DNA of 64,000 nucleotides, from NCBI RefSeq assembly GCF_002201895.1, contig NZ_CP019436.1, positions 1,054,001-1,118,000 on the forward strand, given 5' to 3'. The notes beneath the pieces were generated by a model. The model saw only the letters and a program-made list of their open reading frames with translations. It did not search any database and had not been told where the DNA came from. Positions within the stretch are counted from its first letter, which is position 1. Every line of letters begins with the position of its first letter. The stretch comes from Methanopyrus sp. SNP6 (GTDB lineage Archaea > JAADCQ01 > Methanopyri > Methanopyrales > Methanopyraceae). Made by a program: the position numbers and the translations under genes. Below are positions 21,682-29,503 of this stretch, piece by piece.

Positions 21682-22468
21682 GGCTCTCATCGTCGTGATC
21701 ATCGCGACGCTGACGGTTCCGTATTTCGTGTTCTATGGTAAGCCGCGCGGTCCCGGGTACCCTACGGAGCTGTACGGGTATCGGATCGTACTGAAAGATC
21801 CGGCGCTCGCGGTGGTGGACGTGGAACCCAGACGGACCCTGCTGTTCAGGCACACGCTTACGGTGTCCGATGAGGGTTGGTCCGTGTATCCTGTTCTCGA
21901 TATACCTCCACTGATACTCGTGCGCGCGGAGCGCATGGATGCCCTCGAAACGGTTAAGAGGAACCTGTGGGCGGTTGTACTGCAGGAGGGAGCTGGACGT
22001 GTGTTCATGCCCGACGAGTTCGTTGAGGGTGGTGTTCCGGGACTCATCACAGGCATAGCCGGCCAGGCTTGGGCCTGGAAACATCTGAAATGGGCCAGAG
22101 AGTTCGGAGTTATTCACGGGCTACGTCGGTACGCTAAGGAGGTAGGACCCGAGCGCGTTTCTACCGCTATCTTAAAAGAGTATAGGAAGGCACCGTGGCG
22201 GGCGGTCCTAGATTTCTGTTACATGATGAAGAACAGCGAAGTAGGGAGATTCCTACGCTCACGTGGGCTTTCCTTCAGGGATTTCCTCACCAGTAAAGAT
22301 CCGAAACTAGTGGCGGAAGTCCTAGTCGTGTTGGACCTGGGGAGGCTTGACAAGCGAGTAGTTAAGGAAAGAATACGGTACGTGTTGGATGCAAGGGCTT
22401 ACCCCATCCCTAAGCTGGAAGAAAAGATCATGGATAAGGCGGCGCATGAGCTGCTACATCATGGATGA
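21653..22468 (+). CDS. Single-pass membrane protein of unknown function
   Basis: Unrecognised, 271 residues. An N-terminal transmembrane segment (GKALIVVIIATLTVPYFVFY) is followed by a short beta region and a long helical domain (VKRNLWAVVLQEGAGRVF; AWAWKHLKWAREFGVIHGLRRYA). The GTG start lies 29 bp inside the preceding OB-fold gene, so the two are likely translationally coupled and may form one envelope complex. The end overlaps the tfb stop by 10 bp, convergent. Confidence 0.68.
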   Translation: MWIRQYVLGKALIVVIIATLTVPYFVFYGKPRGPGYPTELYGYRIVLKDPALAVVDVEPRRTLLFRHTLTVSDEGWSVYPVLDIPPLILVRAERMDALETVKRNLWAVVLQEGAGRVFMPDEFVEGGVPGLITGIAGQAWAWKHLKWAREFGVIHGLRRYAKEVGPERVSTAILKEYRKAPWRAVLDFCYMMKNSEVGRFLRSRGLSFRDFLTSKDPKLVAEVLVVLDLGRLDKRVVKERIRYVLDARAYPIPKLEEKIMDKAAHELLHHG

Positions 22469-23382
22469 AGCTCGATCCCGAGGGCTTCACAGATCTCCTT
22501 GTATCGGTTTCGGATAGTAACTTCAGTAACTCGAGCAACCTCCGCGATCTCCTTCTGAGTACGTCTCTCTCCCTCAAGAATAGACGCTATGTATAGTGCA
22601 GCCGCGGCTACACCAGCCGGTCCCTTACCCACGGTGATGCCTTTCTCTTTGGCCTTCTCGATAATCTCTTGAGCCTTAGCCTGGACGTTCTCGGAGACCC
22701 CTAACTTTGAGGCGAACCTGGGCAGGTGATCGGAGGGTTCAGCCGGCTTCTGCTTCAGGTTCAGCCGACGTTGCAGTACTCGATAAGCCCGGAGTACCTC
22801 GTTTTCATCCGAGACTCCAAGCGCCTCCGCGATCTCGCGGGCAGTCCGGGGCACGCGAGCTTCTTTGCACGCGGCGAACACCGCAGCTCCCAAAACGCTC
22901 TCTATGCCGCGGCCACGCACGATCCCTTCTTTGTACGCCTTCCTGTATATCGAGGCGGCGAGTTCCCTGACCGACTCGGGTAGCTGGAGCTTGGACGCGA
23001 GATTCTCCAGCTCCAGAAACGCCTGGAAAAAGTTCCTTTCCCTACTTCCAGATACTTTGATACGTGCATCCCAGGTACGGATGCGCCGCATCCGGGGGTT
23101 CTTTTTCCCACCGGAATCGCGCAACTCCCGGTCTATAATCGTGGATATTCCCTTATCCGGTAACCTCAGCTTAACGGGCTCTCCAGTTCGAGACCTCCGT
23201 TGCCTCTGGTCCTGGTTAAAATGCCGCCACTCAGGGCCGGGATCTATCACCGGATCTTCAGTGACCAGTCCGCAGTCCGCGCAGACGTACTCACCCCGCT
23301 CTTCATCGAAAACAATTTCTGCGGAACCACACACCGGACACTCTTCCGTGAGCTTCCCGGGATTCTTTCCAGAAGCAGCCAT
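22459..23382 (-). CDS. tfb: Transcription initiation factor IIB (TFB)
   Basis: Recruited by TBP and contacts BRE DNA and RNA polymerase. The 307-residue protein has an N-terminal zinc ribbon (CPVCGSAEIVFDEERGEYVC, C..C), the B-reader/linker (EWRHFNQDQRQRRSRTG) and two cyclin repeats at about 110-200 and 205-300, the second with a helix-turn-helix (KEIAEVARVTEVTIRNRYKE). It is 15 bp downstream of gar1 on the same strand, a common archaeal neighbour pair. Confidence 0.97.
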   Translation of the reverse strand: MAASGKNPGKLTEECPVCGSAEIVFDEERGEYVCADCGLVTEDPVIDPGPEWRHFNQDQRQRRSRTGEPVKLRLPDKGISTIIDRELRDSGGKKNPRMRRIRTWDARIKVSGSRERNFFQAFLELENLASKLQLPESVRELAASIYRKAYKEGIVRGRGIESVLGAAVFAACKEARVPRTAREIAEALGVSDENEVLRAYRVLQRRLNLKQKPAEPSDHLPRFASKLGVSENVQAKAQEIIEKAKEKGITVGKGPAGVAAAALYIASILEGERRTQKEIAEVARVTEVTIRNRYKEICEALGIELHP

Positions 23383-23397
23383 TCTCGATACACCCCA

Positions 23398-23679
23398 TCA
23401 TCTGCGGCGGCGGGGTCGACCCCGCCGCCTACGGGGAGGCCTCCGCCGCCGTTTAGGTGGTATGAAAAGCTCCTTCCCGACGAACCTCTCGAGGTGGTGT
23501 CGAGACTTATCTCGGACGGCCACGTAGGGCTTATCCGCAGGTCCAAAAACGTCTACAATAACACCTACGCGCTCACGACGGCGAGTTACAACGGGTGCCC
23601 CTAAAGGCGGTACGTGATCGGCCCTCGCGATGAGATTTCCCCTGGGCGTAACGTGGAGGGCGCGCCCCAGCCTGCGCAT
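23398..23679 (-). CDS. gar1: H/ACA RNP protein Gar1
   Basis: A 93-residue RNA-guided pseudouridylation component. It has the Gar1 beta-barrel (RALHVTPRGNLIARADHVPPLGAPVV, GVIVDVFGPADKPYVAV) and a strongly basic Arg-Pro tail (RRRRPPRRRRGRPRRRR). ATG at 23677-23679 has GGAGGTG 6 nt upstream. It is followed closely by tfb. The basic tail is longer and more repetitive than in many archaea and probably contacts RNA. Confidence 0.92.
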   Translation of the reverse strand: MRRLGRALHVTPRGNLIARADHVPPLGAPVVTRRRERVGVIVDVFGPADKPYVAVRDKSRHHLERFVGKELFIPPKRRRRPPRRRRGRPRRRR

Positions 23680-23714
23680 GACGACACCTCCTACACGTTA
23701 CTGCTTAACTCGAA

Positions 23715-23729
23715 GTTTTTATCGTTTTT
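23715..23729 (-). promoter_or_regulatory. Promoter for gar1-tfb
   Basis: On the minus strand this reads as A-rich aaaaacgataaaaac, 36-50 bp upstream of the gar1 ATG and the only AT-rich block in the 80-bp spacer. A start about 25 bp downstream gives a short leader that still contains GGAGGTG. Good position and composition; no experimental support. Confidence 0.5.
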
Positions 23730-23759
23730 GGCACTCTAGAACCCACGACCCAGACTTCA

Positions 23760-24236
23760 TTATCTGTTGGCACATTCCGAGCACACATCGAGTTTCTTGT
23801 TGCCCTTGAACTTCTTCCCACACACCTTACACGTACACTCGTACAGCTTTGCTCGCTTACCTTCGAGCTCGGCTTCCCTCTTGATCCGGCATGTCCTCTC
23901 TAGCTCTCGACGGAGGTAGAACCAGGTATCGCCGAACACGTCCCTACCACGCATTACCACTCTCCTGGCGACCTCGAGTCCATTGTCGTCACTATTATTC
24001 ATAGCACGTACCATTGCACTCAAGAACTGACGCTCTCGATACCTGTAAAGGTCTATAGCGTCGTTGGGGCAGACACGCACGCACTTATCGCAAGCGTCAC
24101 ATGCCTCCAGGTCTGCGATGACCACCTCTTCATCCTTGATTTTCAACACTCCTCTCTCACAAACCTCAACGCAGAGCGCGCAGGAGGCTCCATCACATCT
24201 GGTCCGGTCGATCTCGATACGACGGACTACCTGCAC
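23760..24236 (-). CDS. 2[4Fe-4S] ferredoxin with C-terminal zinc ribbon
   Basis: A 158-residue protein. Residues 1-60 form a bacterial-type ferredoxin domain: the first cluster motif is CDGASCALCVEVC (an extra two residues in the first spacing) and the second is CDACDKCVRVCP. A helical linker follows (REFL.. RQFLSAMVRAMNNSDDN), then a four-cysteine ribbon CTCKVCGKKFKGNKKLDVCSEC, more like a DNA/RNA- or protein-binding Zn finger than a third cluster. GTG at 24234-24236 has GGGGGGGAG 5 nt upstream. The combination suggests an electron carrier docking to a specific partner or a redox-sensing regulator. Confidence 0.78.
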   Translation of the reverse strand: MQVVRRIEIDRTRCDGASCALCVEVCERGVLKIKDEEVVIADLEACDACDKCVRVCPNDAIDLYRYRERQFLSAMVRAMNNSDDNGLEVARRVVMRGRDVFGDTWFYLRRELERTCRIKREAELEGKRAKLYECTCKVCGKKFKGNKKLDVCSECANR

Positions 24237-24241
24237 CTATG

Positions 24242-24257
24242 CTCCCCCCCGGGGAGG
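24242..24257. promoter_or_regulatory. Shared inverted-repeat Shine-Dalgarno element
   Basis: CTCCCCCCCGGGGAGG lies between the ferredoxin GTG (24236, minus) and the TTG at 24265 (plus). Minus-strand reading gives GGGGGGGAG 5 nt before GTG; plus-strand reading gives GGGGAGG 7 nt before TTG. The whole divergent spacer is 28 bp, so each gene's core promoter must lie inside its neighbour's coding sequence or transcripts are near leaderless. Confidence 0.6.
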
Positions 24258-24264
24258 ATCGGAG

Positions 24265-24657
24265 TTGGACATAAGGGTTCGAGAAGATGACGGCGACGTG
24301 ATCTTAGAGTTCTATGCGGAGGACGGCAAGTCGGTCGAAGTTTCAACGCGTGCGTTTTACACGGTAATATACCTGAACCGCCAGGATCCTATCGAGAAGA
24401 CGAAGGAGTTGTTCATTAAGGTCTCGAAGATCCTCGGCGAGGAACAACCCGAGATCTCGGTGCGGCGAGAGGAGTACCCTTCGGGTCACATCCTGAATCC
24501 GTGGGTAGCCAACTCGGAGGGTGCTGACGACGTATGGCCGCTGGTCTTCGAGGTGAAATCGAAGGGTGGAGTAGCGTGGGAGTTCACGTTACTTGTTCCC
24601 GTAAGGTTGGAGGGCCGGCGACTCAGGGAGATACTTTTAAAAGTTTTCAGATCTTGA
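24265..24657 (+). CDS. Small acidic protein of unknown function
   Basis: Unrecognised, 130 residues, alpha/beta with charged strands (DIRVREDDGDVILEFYAEDG; VWPLVFEVKSKGGVAWEFTLLV) and a C-terminal helix. TTG at 24265 has GGGGAGG 7 nt upstream. The frame extends to 24064, but that part overlaps the ferredoxin gene. It diverges from the ferredoxin gene through a shared Shine-Dalgarno palindrome and precedes the HTH-PhoU gene by 31 bp, with a TATA-like block at its own 3' end. Confidence 0.68.
   Translation: MDIRVREDDGDVILEFYAEDGKSVEVSTRAFYTVIYLNRQDPIEKTKELFIKVSKILGEEQPEISVRREEYPSGHILNPWVANSEGADDVWPLVFEVKSKGGVAWEFTLLVPVRLEGRRLREILLKVFRS
24635..24642 (+). promoter_or_regulatory. TATA-like element before the HTH-PhoU operon
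   Basis: TTTTAAAA lies 47-54 bp upstream of the TTG at 24689, inside the last codons of the preceding gene. A start site around 24665 would give a leader carrying the strong GGAGGTGAT ribosome-binding site (24675-24683). This is the best candidate promoter for the three-gene unit 24689-26601. Confidence 0.5.
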
Positions 24658-24688
24658 TCGCCCGATCTCCCGCGGAGGTGATATCATC

Positions 24689-25624
24689 TTGTACCCGAGA
24701 GGGAGGAAAGCTACCCTCGCGGCCATCTTGCATACCATACTGCGGGACCGTCCCTCGACGCAGAAAGAGATCGCAGAGAAGGTTGGTGTCTCCCGGCGAT
24801 ATGTTACGGAACTCCTAAGACCGCTCATCGAAGAGGGCGCTGTTCGAAGGACGTACACAGTCGACATGTCGAAGCTCAGACGCCATTTCCCCAAATTATT
24901 CGAGGAGCTCGGAAACTTCCTGTACGAAGATGTAGAGATGCACTTAGAGGGCGTCCGACCCTACTTCAAACGCATGACTGACCTGACCCTCGAGCAAATC
25001 GAGACGGCTCTCATCGCGGTCGAGGAGAACCCAGAACAGGCTCCTAAGGTTATCGAGATGGACGAGGAAGTGAACCGATTGGACGAAGAAATACGTCTCT
25101 ACGTCCGGACGCTTCCAGTTCTCCATCCTTGTGAGGAAGCTGGCAAGGTGGCGACCCTACTGCTGGAGATCTCGCACTGTATCGAGCGGATAGGGGACTA
25201 CGCGTGCAACATCGCGGAGGTGGCTGAAACACTCGGGACACTGTCCGACCTGCAGTGCTGGAGGGACGTGCGCGAGGCCGCCCTGGAAGCTCGTAGAATG
25301 GTGGAAACCGCGTACAGCGTTTTCCTCGGTCGGGTGAAGAAGGAGGACCTGCGCGATGAAGCTGAAAAGGTATACTGCGCCGAAGATCGTGTCCACAAAA
25401 ACATAATCAAGGCGTGTGAGAAGGCCGTTGAGGAAACGAAAGAGTTTCCTAAAAAGGCCGACCGGCTGTTCGGTCTTTCCCGGATCACGAAGGACATCGA
25501 GCGCATCGCGGATAAGGCCGTAGACGTTGTAGATTTCACGCGCGAGCTCGTGGAGGGTAGGCCTAGGGATCTCACACCTGAGCAAGAGATGAGGAGCACC
25601 CTACCCGCTGACGGCACTTATTAG
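24689..25624 (+). CDS. HTH-PhoU fusion protein
   Basis: A 311-residue protein. Residues 1-60 form a winged-helix DNA-binding domain (LRDRPSTQKEIAEKVGVSRRYVTELL). Two PhoU-type three-helix bundles follow, with the acidic metal-binding motifs EISHCIERIGDYACNIAE and LSRITKDIERIADKAVDVVD. Canonical PhoU represses phosphate uptake; the fusion to an HTH suggests a direct transcriptional regulator responding to phosphate or metal. TTG at 24689 has a near-perfect GGAGGTGAT site 6 nt upstream. No pst transporter is nearby; instead an FtsZ-like gene and a ribbon-helix-helix gene follow within 15 bp each. Confidence 0.85.
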   Translation: MYPRGRKATLAAILHTILRDRPSTQKEIAEKVGVSRRYVTELLRPLIEEGAVRRTYTVDMSKLRRHFPKLFEELGNFLYEDVEMHLEGVRPYFKRMTDLTLEQIETALIAVEENPEQAPKVIEMDEEVNRLDEEIRLYVRTLPVLHPCEEAGKVATLLLEISHCIERIGDYACNIAEVAETLGTLSDLQCWRDVREAALEARRMVETAYSVFLGRVKKEDLRDEAEKVYCAEDRVHKNIIKACEKAVEETKEFPKKADRLFGLSRITKDIERIADKAVDVVDFTRELVEGRPRDLTPEQEMRSTLPADGTY

Positions 25625-25635
25625 GGGGGTGCCGG

Positions 25636-26352
25636 TTGTATTACATCGGGCTCGGCGGATTCGGCTGCCGGTTCTCCACTCACGCCTCAAACGCAGGTCT
25701 TGAGGTGATCCTCTGCGCGGGATCTAGAGGAGACCTACTGCGTGTATCGGAAGGCGAGAAAATCGAGGTGGCCAGCGGTATCGGGTTCAGTCGGGACTGG
25801 TGTAAGGCTTCCGAGGAGCTGCAAGAGCAAGCGGAGACTATCCGCGAAACGCTGGAAAGGGTGGGTGCTGAGGAACCCACGGTTCTAGCTTTCGGTCTCG
25901 GTGGAGCCGTCGGATACGCTTTAGCGCAGCAGATCCTGAAGGAGCCTCCGGTACCCTTCATCGTACTGACCACGGTTCCGGGAGAATCGGAGGACCCTCA
26001 GGTGCGTCGCAACGCCGCCGAGCAGGTGAAGAGCGTCCTGGGAGTGTCTATCAAGCTTCCCGTCCTCTGGGTGGACAACGCGTTAGGTGGGTATGAAAGG
26101 GTTAACAGGGTACTCGAGAGAACACTCCTCGACCTCCGAGACTTCCTGGGCGTGCCCGTGGAGGAGCTCCCGAACTTGGCCGGTAACTACGCGTTGTCAC
26201 CTTCGATCTCCGGAGAGAGGGTGACCGGGGACGTCGTCAAGACATCGGCGGATGAGGTCAGGAAGCTGGTGGAGAGTAGAGAGCCAGAGGAACATGTGGT
26301 TCGACGCGAGCGCCGTGGGCCCGATCCGGAGTCGCTGAGAGAATTGTTCTAA
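25636..26352 (+). CDS. Divergent tubulin/FtsZ-fold GTPase-like protein
   Basis: A 238-residue protein whose N-terminus IGLGGFGCRF matches the first FtsZ nucleotide loop and whose FGLGGAVGYALAQQI occupies the place of the tubulin signature GGGTGTG, altered here. Further FtsZ-like pieces are PFIVLTTVPGESEDPQVRRNAAEQ and PVLWVDNALGGYERVNRVL. The C-terminal GTPase-activating domain is missing or very short, ending in a charged tail. TTG at 25636 has GGGGGGTG 5 nt upstream. It lies between an HTH-PhoU gene and a ribbon-helix-helix gene. Division FtsZ is longer (about 370 residues), so this is a separate, probably non-division member. Confidence 0.68.
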   Translation: MYYIGLGGFGCRFSTHASNAGLEVILCAGSRGDLLRVSEGEKIEVASGIGFSRDWCKASEELQEQAETIRETLERVGAEEPTVLAFGLGGAVGYALAQQILKEPPVPFIVLTTVPGESEDPQVRRNAAEQVKSVLGVSIKLPVLWVDNALGGYERVNRVLERTLLDLRDFLGVPVEELPNLAGNYALSPSISGERVTGDVVKTSADEVRKLVESREPEEHVVRRERRGPDPESLRELF

Positions 26353-26364
26353 GGGTGAACCGAT

Positions 26365-26601
26365 ATGTCGAGGAAAGCCAGAGTGACGCTCACACTCTCC
26401 GAGGATGCCTTGGCCCGGGTCCTAGCGACTAAAGACGCCCTCGAAGGAGACAGCATTTCGGCCACCGTCGGCAAGTTGGTGAAGTTCGGATTCGCGTACC
26501 TCAGGGAGAAGTTCCCTGAACTGTTCGAGGGTATAAACCTTGAGGAATACCGTGAGAAGGCGCGTGAGCGCTGGTTCGATTCCGGATCCTCTCGGTCATA
26601 G
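26365..26601 (+). CDS. Ribbon-helix-helix-like small protein
   Basis: 78 residues. The opening KARVTLTLSEDALARVLATKDA, then SISATVGKLVKFGFAYL, fits a ribbon-helix-helix DNA-binding fold: a short beta strand and two helices. A charged helical tail follows. ATG at 26365 has GGGTGA 6 nt upstream and lies 12 bp after the FtsZ-like gene. The pairing of a DNA-binding dimer with a tubulin-fold protein recalls TubR-TubZ partition modules in plan, although TubR has a winged helix. Fold assignment is moderate. Confidence 0.65.
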   Translation: MSRKARVTLTLSEDALARVLATKDALEGDSISATVGKLVKFGFAYLREKFPELFEGINLEEYREKARERWFDSGSSRS

Positions 26602-26610
26602 TTTTTAAAC
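26601..26610 (+). promoter_or_regulatory. argJ promoter (TATA-like)
   Basis: GTTTTTAAAC lies 33 bp upstream of the argJ TTG, directly after the ribbon-helix-helix gene stop. Predicted initiation about 25 bp downstream leaves a leader of under 12 nt. A G/C inverted repeat (ggggtccc/gggaacc region, 26620-26638) sits between TATA and start and could affect initiation. Confidence 0.5.
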
Positions 26611-26642
26611 TCGGGTCAGAGGGGTCCCTCCAGGGAACCGCG

Positions 26643-27806
26643 TTGCGTGCACCTGAAGGCTTCCTTCTTGGTGGTATCAAACGCGAAGGTATAGGAGTTG
26701 GGTTAATCTTCTCGGAGCGTCGATGTGCCGTAGCGGGCACCTTCACTGAGAACACCCTCCGCGCCGCTCCGGTGGAGTACTCCGAGGAGGTGTGCGAGCG
26801 AGGTGTCGCCCGCGGAGTGATAGTGAACAGTGGTCACGCCAACGCGATGACGGGTGAGGATGGATATCAAGACGTACTGCGCACTGCGGAAGCGATCGCC
26901 GAGCTAACGGGGGCTCCGGAGGACGAAATAGTGGTGTGTTCTACTGGCGTGATCGGTGAGCGACCCCCTGTCGATAAGATTGTGGAGTACGCGCGCGAAG
27001 TTTGGGAGGATATGGGATCCACTGAACGGCACGTTCTGGAGTTTAGTCGGGCCATCTTGACCACAGATACTGAGGAGAAAATAACTTTGTACGAGGGCGA
27101 TGGTTGGTCACTCCTCGGAATCGCGAAGGGTGCTGGTATGATACATCCGAACATGTCCACTATGCTCGCATTTTTGCTCACCGATGTGGGAGTGAAACCA
27201 AAAGAGCTTCAGATGTGGCTTCGTGAGGTCGTGAACGACACATTCAACATGATAACGGTAGATGGAGATGAGAGCACTAATGATTCCGTAGTGCTGCTAG
27301 CGAACGACAGCTCGAACCTCAAAGTCGGCAGAGATGTCACTATCACGGAGTTCCAACGCGCCCTGGAAGAGGTCTGTACGGAGCTCGCTGAGAAGATTGT
27401 ACGAGACGGTGAAGGGGCGACGAAGCTAATGATAGTACGCGTACACGGTGCGAGTAATGAAGCAGAGGCTCGGCGTGCGGCCCGCGCGATAGCATCCTCA
27501 AACCTGGTGAAGGCGGCGCTGTTCGGCGAGGATCCGAACTGGGGACGGATCGGAGCCGCCATCGGGGCCGCACGCGTCGACGTCGATCCTGACGAGTTAC
27601 AGATAGCTTTCCGCAGCTCAGAGGGCGAGATAGTGGCCTACGAAGGAGGTCCTGTGGATTTTGACGAAAAGAAGGCTAAGCGCGTTCTCTCCGCGAGCGA
27701 AGTTGAGATTGTGGTGGACTTAGGAGTAGGTGACGCGTCCGCCCGCGCGTGGGGGTGTGACCTAACGTACGAGTACGTGCGGATCAACGCGGAGTACAGG
27801 ACCTGA
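26643..27806 (+). CDS. argJ: Bifunctional ornithine acetyltransferase / N-acetylglutamate synthase
   Basis: Transfers the acetyl group from N-acetylornithine to glutamate in arginine synthesis. The 387-residue precursor self-cleaves before the nucleophilic Thr in the motif KGAGMIHPNMSTML near residues 159-172; here Ser replaces the usual Ala before Thr. Other signatures are SGHANAMTG, STGVIG and EDPNWGRIGAAIG. TTG at 26643 is the only good start. Whether it is monofunctional or bifunctional cannot be read from sequence alone. The downstream gene is an ornithine cyclodeaminase-type enzyme, so the two act on the same metabolite. Confidence 0.95.
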   Translation: MRAPEGFLLGGIKREGIGVGLIFSERRCAVAGTFTENTLRAAPVEYSEEVCERGVARGVIVNSGHANAMTGEDGYQDVLRTAEAIAELTGAPEDEIVVCSTGVIGERPPVDKIVEYAREVWEDMGSTERHVLEFSRAILTTDTEEKITLYEGDGWSLLGIAKGAGMIHPNMSTMLAFLLTDVGVKPKELQMWLREVVNDTFNMITVDGDESTNDSVVLLANDSSNLKVGRDVTITEFQRALEEVCTELAEKIVRDGEGATKLMIVRVHGASNEAEARRAARAIASSNLVKAALFGEDPNWGRIGAAIGAARVDVDPDELQIAFRSSEGEIVAYEGGPVDFDEKKAKRVLSASEVEIVVDLGVGDASARAWGCDLTYEYVRINAEYRT

Positions 27807-28038
27807 CCACCTCCCGTCTTGAGGGATGAAATTTTTCGGGGGCGGTTCATAGTCTCTCTGTTCGGGATCACGCCTCTCACTGTGCAGTCAGTCGAGCCGA
27901 ATGCATGGGCAAATAACAGGTAGGTTCGTGGCGATTCCGGATCACCGATCAATTCGTGGTCGCTCGGAACCCGAGAATGAGAACCCTCTTCCCTTTCAAC
28001 CCAAGAGGAGGATCGCTAAGGGCGTGAGGGGGCCTCAC
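27807..28038. other. 232-bp leader/spacer between argJ and the cyclodeaminase gene
   Basis: No gene is supported. The open frame continues upstream to 27901 but that part lacks family similarity. An AT-rich patch (aaattttt at about 27830) could be a promoter. The 3' end holds the hairpin GTGAGG-GGG-CCTCAC at 28024-28038, which contains the likely Shine-Dalgarno GAGGGGG for the TTG at 28039. No tRNA or C/D box pattern was found. Confidence 0.4.
28024..28038 (+). promoter_or_regulatory. Hairpin covering the ribosome-binding site
   Basis: GTGAGG GGG CCTCAC is a perfect 6-bp stem with a GGG loop directly before the TTG start at 28039. The stem includes the GAGGGGG that best matches a Shine-Dalgarno site. 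Folding would hide the site, so translation may be controlled by unfolding, temperature or a bound factor. Confidence 0.45.
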
Positions 28039-29277
28039 TTGACCGACAGGGAGGAGGTGGTAGAACTCCGAGGTCACATCATCGACTCACTCATTTTCTC
28101 ACGGGTACTGGACACTATCATGGAGATGGGTGGAGATTTCGAAATATTGGAGTTCAAGGTTGGGAAGCGCAAAACGGACCCCAGTTTCGCGAAGATTCTC
28201 GTCAAGGGGAAGGATCCTGAGCATCTTAGGGAGATAATCTCCGAACTGCGTAAGTATGGGGCGATTCCAGTTCATACGCAGGAAGTCCGACTGGAACCGG
28301 CTCCGGCGGACGGTGTCTGTCCCAGGGGCTTTTACACGACTACGAACCACCGAACGTTCGTATTTTTTGACGGCGAGTGGATCGAGGTCGAGGATATAGA
28401 GATGGACTGTGCGATCGTGATTTACCCGGAGGAACGCAGGGCAGTGGCTAAACCTATCCGGGAGGTTCGCGAGGGAGAGTTGGTGGTGGTAGGAGATAGA
28501 GGAGTGCGCGTGAAGCCCCCCGAGAGACCTCGAGGTAGGACTGGAATCTTCGGCTTCATGGAGAGCGAAGTCTCACCTGAGAAGCCCACACTAACGCTAA
28601 TCCGAAGGATAGCTGAAGAACTAGAATGGCACAGAAAGAACGGGAAAGTCGTGGTAGTCGTTGGCCCTGCTGTAATTCACGCTGGAGCCCGTGATGACTT
28701 AGCGTGGATGATCAAAGAAGGGTACGTGGACGTACTCTTCGCTGGTAATGCTGTGGCTACGCACGACGTCGAAGCTAGTTTATTCGGGACATCACTCGGC
28801 GTGGATTTGGAGACGGGCGAGCCAGTAAAGGGTGGACATAGTCACCACCTTTACGCCATCAACGAGATCCGACGAGTGGGTGGATTACGCGAAGCCGTTG
28901 AGAAAGGAATCCTAAAAGATGGGATAATGTACGAGTGCATCGTCAACGATGTTCCGTACGTGCTGGCAGGCTCGATACGTGATGATGGTCCTATCCCGGA
29001 CGTAATTACCGACGTCATGGAAGCTCAAGCGGAGATGCGACGTCACCTTAAGGGGGCCACCCTAGTGCTGATGATGGCGACGATGCTTCACTCGATCGCT
29101 ACCGGCAACCTCTTGCCTTCCTGGGTCAAAACTATCTGCGTAGATATCAACCCCGCGGTAGTTACGAAGTTGATGGATCGAGGAACCGCCCAGGCTCTGG
29201 GAATAGTGTCCGACGTCGGAGTGTTCCTACCGGAGCTCGTGAAGGAGCTCAAGAGGATCCGCGACGACGAGGCTTAG
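28039..29277 (+). CDS. Archaeal ornithine cyclodeaminase-type (LOR/SDH family) protein
   Basis: A 412-residue member of the TIGR00300-like LOR/SDH family, related to enzymes that convert ornithine to proline with NAD. The N-terminal domain begins [19 protein letters not shown] and has [18 protein letters not shown]; the mid part has [11 protein letters not shown]; the C-terminal Rossmann-like part has [21 protein letters not shown] and [17 protein letters not shown] at 28039 gives an N-terminus typical of homologues. Position after argJ fits an ornithine-to-proline route. It overlaps the convergent 29249 gene by 29 bp. Substrate is inferred from family literature, not tested here. Confidence 0.82.
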
Positions 29278-29503
29278 TCCACTCTTTTATCCTGCGTTCG
29301 GTAAGTTCTTCCATCACCTTTTTAGCCTCTTCCAGCGCATCCTTCGTCCCCCTGAAAGCTAGGACTGTTGTCTTAGTTCCTCCACGTTCAATCTCCCGTT
29401 GCACGACTTTCACGTCGCACCTTCGCTCCACCTCAGCGATCACATCTGCCGGGACGCCTAATGGTATTATCATATCATACTTCTTAGTGTCTCGTTCGGA
29501 CAC
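29249..29503 (-). CDS. Small alpha/beta protein of unknown function
   Basis: 84 residues, one alpha/beta unit ([58 protein letters not shown]) resembling a KH-like or ACT-like half domain with a basic tail. GTG at 29501-29503 is preceded by a run of nine G at 8 nt. It overlaps the cyclodeaminase gene by 29 bp at its 3' end and diverges from the 2PGK gene through a C9-AAA-G5 inverted repeat. No function assigned. Confidence 0.68.

Follow-up and report, generated by a model that had tools for sequence, protein, structure and literature searches.

A short tubulin-fold protein and its possible small partner, encoded between an HTH-PhoU gene and argJ in Methanopyri

In a 64,000-nucleotide stretch of the chromosome of the thermophilic, methanogenic archaeon Methanopyrus sp. 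SNP6 (here called the window), we examined a gene whose predicted product has a tubulin/FtsZ fold and is without a recognisable T7 loop or a full C-terminal domain. This gene (gene 2; positions 25636..26352, + strand; 238 aa) is followed by a gene for a small protein (gene 3) and preceded by a regulator gene (gene 1). Its sequence is best explained by descent from an archaeal FtsZ/CetZ-type protein that was reduced to one domain, the GTPase domain being kept through helix H7. Our best explanation of the whole, which we hold as possible rather than probable and whose mechanism we infer, is that gene 2 encodes a non-hydrolysing, FtsZ/CetZ-derived modulator of division with gene 3 as its small partner.

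Fold and missing parts of the gene 2 product

The initial annotation had described gene 2 as a truncated, divergent FtsZ/tubulin homologue with an altered GGGTGTG loop, and had proposed structure prediction of 25636-26352 as a check. Against the Pfam Tubulin profile gene 2 scored 12.8 bits, under the cut-off of 33, and its single-sequence matches to archaeal FtsZ-type genes had E-values from 2.7e-5 to 8.8e-4. Profile-profile comparison (hhalign) of the gene 2 family with archaeal FtsZ gave an E-value of 3.9e-7 (prob 92.8). A structure model, built from the short-family sequences alone with no FtsZ rows, reached a pTM of 0.66; its ten-residue blocks up to residue 160 had pLDDT values of 56-86, and past residue 172 the values were mostly below 50. 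The top PDB matches listed for this model all belonged to the tubulin superfamily (TubZ, PhuZ, CetZ, FtsZ and tubulin), with VIA-align Z-scores of about 17-18 at the top and Foldseek E-values down to 2.3e-6, and no non-tubulin fold was found among the top matches listed. A PDB profile search with the family, whose six sequences limit its sensitivity, returned no FtsZ match. By the model and the profile comparison, then, gene 2 has the tubulin/FtsZ superfamily fold, and the description as a truncated homologue is borne out.

Gene 2 shares the GTPase-domain fold of archaeal FtsZ and CetZ, and an alignment with FtsZ shows which parts have been kept. The T1 landmark, the T5 P/E, the T6 VDN and the H7 ERVN are all present in gene 2. 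FtsZ and CetZ are about 400 aa long and carry GGGTGTG in the T4 loop, whereas gene 2 has GLGGAVGYA there and departs from the GGGTG[ST]G signature of FtsZ, CetZ and TubZ (the pattern in its family is GL[GL]GA[VTI]GxA). At the T3 position the family has an invariant G..RD, of which the R-D is absent from the FtsZ rows of the alignment. At the T7 position gene 2 reads PNLAGNY, where FtsZ has NLDFADV, and about 65 residues follow H7 and end in a conserved tail; neither a recognisable catalytic T7 loop nor a full C-terminal activation domain was found. Identity to FtsZ is about 25%, and the comparison favored neither FtsZ nor CetZ as the origin. Since the GTPase domain is kept through H7, the product probably binds nucleotide. 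Tubulin-superfamily proteins usually have two domains, and catalysis and filament contact need both; gene 2 has neither a recognisable T7 loop nor a full C-terminal domain, which makes GTP hydrolysis in trans and normal head-to-tail filaments unlikely. Divergent FtsZ homologues without the usual C-terminal domain have been described before as the FtsZl1 family (Makarova and Koonin 2010, PMC2875224). Gene 2 resembles them in its divergence and in the missing domain, but FtsZl1 proteins are long, retain GGGTG[ST]G and possess a coiled coil as well as an additional C-terminal domain, whereas gene 2 is short, is without these features and has a recognisable T6-H7 region.

Organization and variation of the locus

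Gene 1 (24689..25624, + strand; 311 aa) starts with TTG at 24689 behind a perfect Shine-Dalgarno sequence, GGAGGTGAT (24674..24682, + strand), and a TATA-like promoter element, CTTTTAAAAG (24634..24643, + strand), lies within the 3′ end of the upstream ORF; both elements were read from the sequence. The TATA-like element is identical in G001 and is not kept in G002 or G003, and GGAGGTGA at the Shine-Dalgarno site is invariant in all five Methanopyri genomes (G000, that of the window, to G004). An 11-bp gap separates gene 1 from gene 2 and a 12-bp gap gene 2 from gene 3, and the two downstream genes have weaker Shine-Dalgarno sites (GGGGGTG at 25625-25631 for gene 2, GGGTGA at 26353-26358 for gene 3), so that the earlier picture of three closely spaced genes behind one strong ribosome-binding site holds. 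Directly 3′ of gene 3, argJ (26643) has its own TATA-like element, TTTTTAAA, and the transcription unit therefore plausibly stops after gene 3.

Pfam domains in gene 1 (PhoU, E 3.9e-26; winged HTH, HTH_24, E 1.1e-7) confirm the proposed DNA-binding PhoU fusion: an N-terminal winged HTH is joined to PhoU repeat(s), and PhoU structures were matched in the PDB. The gene is present in all five Methanopyri and has homologues in other archaea at 33-36% identity with the same domain order. In three of these other genomes pstS/pstC-like genes lie within a few kb, and in two another ABC transporter adjoins (the transporter names were read from the sequences, not from a profile search). Unlike at the gene 1 locus, no tubulin-like partner was found beside the HTH-PhoU genes of the other archaea examined. 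The HTH-PhoU gene is a separate, old gene distinct from genes 2 and 3, and belongs to the conserved chromosomal backbone and not to the cassette described below. In one other genome (G025), a 135-aa protein (L042:10075-10482) is encoded 28 bp downstream of the HTH-PhoU gene; its N-terminus is of the RHH_1 type, its C-terminal part is longer, and by eye it looks NikR-like.

The flanks of the locus are syntenic in the five genomes. The order gene 1, gene 2, gene 3, argJ is found in G000, G001 and G002; in G003 and G004 genes 2 and 3 are missing and argJ comes directly after gene 1, at distances of about 50 and 2 bp. We consider the best explanation to be that genes 2 and 3 form a Methanopyri-specific accessory cassette, present in three of the five genomes and either acquired or lost together at the site between the HTH-PhoU gene and argJ. 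A tree of FtsZ and PhoU groups G003 with G002, and the simplest account is therefore that G003 lost the cassette. Between G000 and G001, dN and dS are 0.006 and 0.20 for gene 2 and 0.006 and 0.28 for gene 3. Purifying selection acts on genes 1, 2 and 3, strongly so on gene 2, which marks them as genuine genes.

Divergent relatives, about 30% identical where they match, occur at other loci: G001 has one (L029), and G004 has two (L027 and L028). The L029 copy adjoins a transporter gene; the same transporter is present in G000, where the copy is absent. A small HEPN-like ORF (L029:7391-7744; Pfam HEPN E 0.009, under the cut-off) lies just downstream of the L029 copy. The L028 copy is separated from a Hel308-type helicase gene by an 88-aa ORF (L028:7217-7483), which is RHH-like by eye, found no support in searches and has no convincing relative in the four other Methanopyri genomes. 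The L027 copy (L027:1640-2586) lies 117 bp from an opposite-strand tRNA-Val gene and is convergent with a histone-deacetylase-type gene. Among 84,980 GTDB species, a search that may leave out records very near the genome of the window, the family was found at two loci only, both in MAGs corresponding to G002 and G004. When the family profile was run against 100 relative genomes, members of the short family appeared in Methanopyri only, other matches falling in longer FtsZ/CetZ-type frames. No member was found in viral contigs, and gene 2 was found in no phage or plasmid. As far as these searches reach (GTDB species, 100 relatives and viral contigs), the short tubulin-like family was not found outside Methanopyri.

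Gene 3 (26365..26601, + strand; 78 aa) had been described as ribbon-helix-helix-like. By eye it does show a strand-helix-helix pattern, with RVTLTLS followed by two helices and a GDSIS turn, but profile searches of Pfam, NCBIfam, PHROG and the PDB gave no ribbon-helix-helix support, and comparison with an archaeal RHH_1 profile (13 rows, two of which look like misread frames) was negative. In a low-confidence model (pLDDT 55, pTM 0.33), which matched no fold, an extended stretch at the N-terminus is followed by helices at residues 13-25 and 31-49. Across the searches of the locus, weak matches to BldD and 2ewt were judged spurious. In G002 gene 3 is 88% identical, above gene 1 (72%) and gene 2 (66%). 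We call gene 3 a possible ribbon-helix-helix protein.

The initial annotation knew of no described system with this trio, which is too strong for the pair of genes 2 and 3. In archaea an RHH regulator, cdrS, is co-transcribed with the tubulin homologue ftsZ2 (Darnell 2020, PMC7439475; Liao 2021, PMC8406309), and ftsZ2 often adjoins parD (Pende 2021, PMC8178401). As in genes 2 and 3, these units combine a small putative DNA-binding protein with a tubulin homologue; they differ in that the cdrS-ftsZ2 order is the reverse, that gene 2 is truncated and is not a full-length FtsZ2, and that RHH_1 similarity was not detected in gene 3.

The C-terminal tail and the possible roles of the pair

The C-terminal tail of gene 2 (ERRGPDPESLRELF; 26308..26349, + strand) has an LxxPhiPhi-COOH end, as in Methanopyrus FtsZ (LEKIL/LERIL). 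The FtsZ tails of all five Methanopyri genomes end in L-E-[KR]-I-L; those of gene 2 end in ESLRELF or DSLRELF, and that of the L028 copy in FSRFL. Among 173 length-filtered ORFs of these loci, six have an end of this type (hydrophobic-x-x-hydrophobic-hydrophobic), and four of the six belong to the gene 2 family. The rate is rough, since the set was drawn mechanically (ORFs of 100 aa or more, the longest kept where ORFs overlap) and includes orthologues; the pattern was picked after the sequences had been seen. Two of the four lineages of the family (L027 and L029) are without the exact form. Archaeal FtsZ tails bind SepF (PMC8178401), and each of the five genomes has a SepF gene and FtsA-like genes, so that a candidate anchor for the gene 2 tail exists. 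The resemblance of the tails suggests that gene 2 and FtsZ may share a docking partner.

The modulator reading starts from what is well supported for gene 2 (its fold, the missing T7 loop, its conservation, the cassette behavior, the distribution and the similarity of the tails) and adds nucleotide binding, docking, capping and regulation as steps that we infer. We speculate that the product would modulate the ordinary FtsZ ring: its FtsZ-like tail would dock on the own partner of FtsZ (SepF or the FtsA-like protein), its nucleotide face would cap the FtsZ protofilament, or both. Gene 3 may act as a small regulator of the pair, like CdrS for ftsZ2 in haloarchaea, and co-transcription behind the HTH-PhoU gene could tie the level of gene 2 to phosphate or oxyanion status. 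The fold model, the FtsZ profile match, purifying selection, the tail and the presence of SepF and FtsA-like genes are consistent with such a role, which also has a precedent in the co-transcription of an RHH regulator with a tubulin homologue (PMC7439475, PMC8406309). Weighing on the other side are the post hoc choice of the tail motif and its inexact form in L027 and L029, a divergence from FtsZ that may have removed the filament interface, and the putative status and reversed order of gene 3 relative to cdrS-ftsZ2; presence of the pair in three of five genomes speaks against an essential role in division. That divergence, with the altered T3 and T4 loops and the invariant T3 R-D, also fits a decayed tubulin-superfamily paralogue that serves as a soluble nucleotide-binding sensor or scaffold in another Methanopyrus-specific pathway and has no contact with FtsZ. 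The accessory distribution points the same way, and so does the variety of genes next to the divergent copies (a HEPN-like ORF, a Hel308-type helicase gene and a histone-deacetylase-type gene), whereas the FtsZ-like tail in the gene 2 orthologues and in L028 argues against it; this too we regard as a possibility short of likely.

Other readings concern the locus as a unit. A single apparent promoter, very short gaps and an order kept in three genomes while gene 2 diverged to 66% identity would suit one functional unit in which HTH-PhoU phosphate signalling directly controls the tubulin-like protein. The trio does recur in G001 and G002, but it is not a conserved three-part module: the HTH-PhoU gene occupies the same site without the pair in the G003 and G004 genomes, and in other archaea it lies near phosphate or other ABC transporter genes, and we think direct control unlikely. 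The clean presence or absence of a two-gene cassette at one site, its patchy distribution and the small ORFs after the L028 and L029 copies recall a toxin-antitoxin-like pair, mobile or addictive, in which gene 2 would be a division inhibitor mimicking FtsZ and gene 3 an antitoxin-type repressor. The order here would be toxin first, which is the less usual order in such pairs; gene 3 is only a putative RHH protein, PADLOC matched neither of the two genes, no mobility gene was seen at the locus and the divergence between genomes looks vertical, all of which makes this reading quite improbable.

A tubulin fold beside possible DNA-binding proteins had also been likened to a partition or filament-based positioning module, and a search for repeated operator sites near 24660 or elsewhere had been proposed. 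In such a system, like TubZRC or ParMRC, gene 2 filaments would move DNA bound by gene 3 or the HTH-PhoU protein at a centromere. A search of four gaps (24580-24720, 25600-25660, 26330-26400 and 26590-26660) turned up no direct repeats; the one inverted pair, at 24676-24689, is a 9-nt palindrome that overlaps itself and spans the Shine-Dalgarno sequence and start codon of gene 1. A tandem-repeat search of 22000-29500, with the minimum score lowered to 30, found three two-copy matches with scores of 30-39 (23266-23280, 7-bp unit; 26783-26806, 13-bp period, in argJ; 27549-27571, 12-bp unit, in argJ); being short, two-copy and outside genes 1-3, none is read as a partition centromere. Thus neither iterated centromere repeats nor a T7-type filament-forming tubulin was found, the locus is chromosomal, and the HTH-PhoU gene occurs without gene 2 in two genomes. 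We consider partition highly improbable. A 12-bp palindrome at the TATA box, ACTTTTAAAAGT, is common to G000 and G001 and absent from G002, and was therefore not taken as an operator.

A bolder reading, which we rate as rather doubtful, is that gene 2 stands for a new family within the tubulin superfamily whose members are naturally single-domain and non-hydrolysing, cap FtsZ or compete with FtsZ for its anchor, and are regulated by a dedicated small partner, in effect a natural archaeal FtsZ decoy. A conserved family consisting of the nucleotide half only would show that this domain can be put to new use with no polymerisation, and would give a natural means to study FtsZ ring anchoring and capping in an archaeon with SepF and an FtsA-like protein.

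A GID motif is nearly invariant in archaeal FtsZ tails (PMC8178401); the Methanopyrus FtsZ proteins (L047, L044, L046, L045 and L072) have LEDLEKIL-type tails without it, though SepF is present. The combination of SepF with an FtsA-like protein is unusual for an archaeon (PMC8178401). Each of the five genomes has two separate above-cut-off matches to the FtsA family (PF14450), in G000 at C1:470853-471326 and 688992-689360, the second of which falls within a reading frame that extends to about 550 aa.
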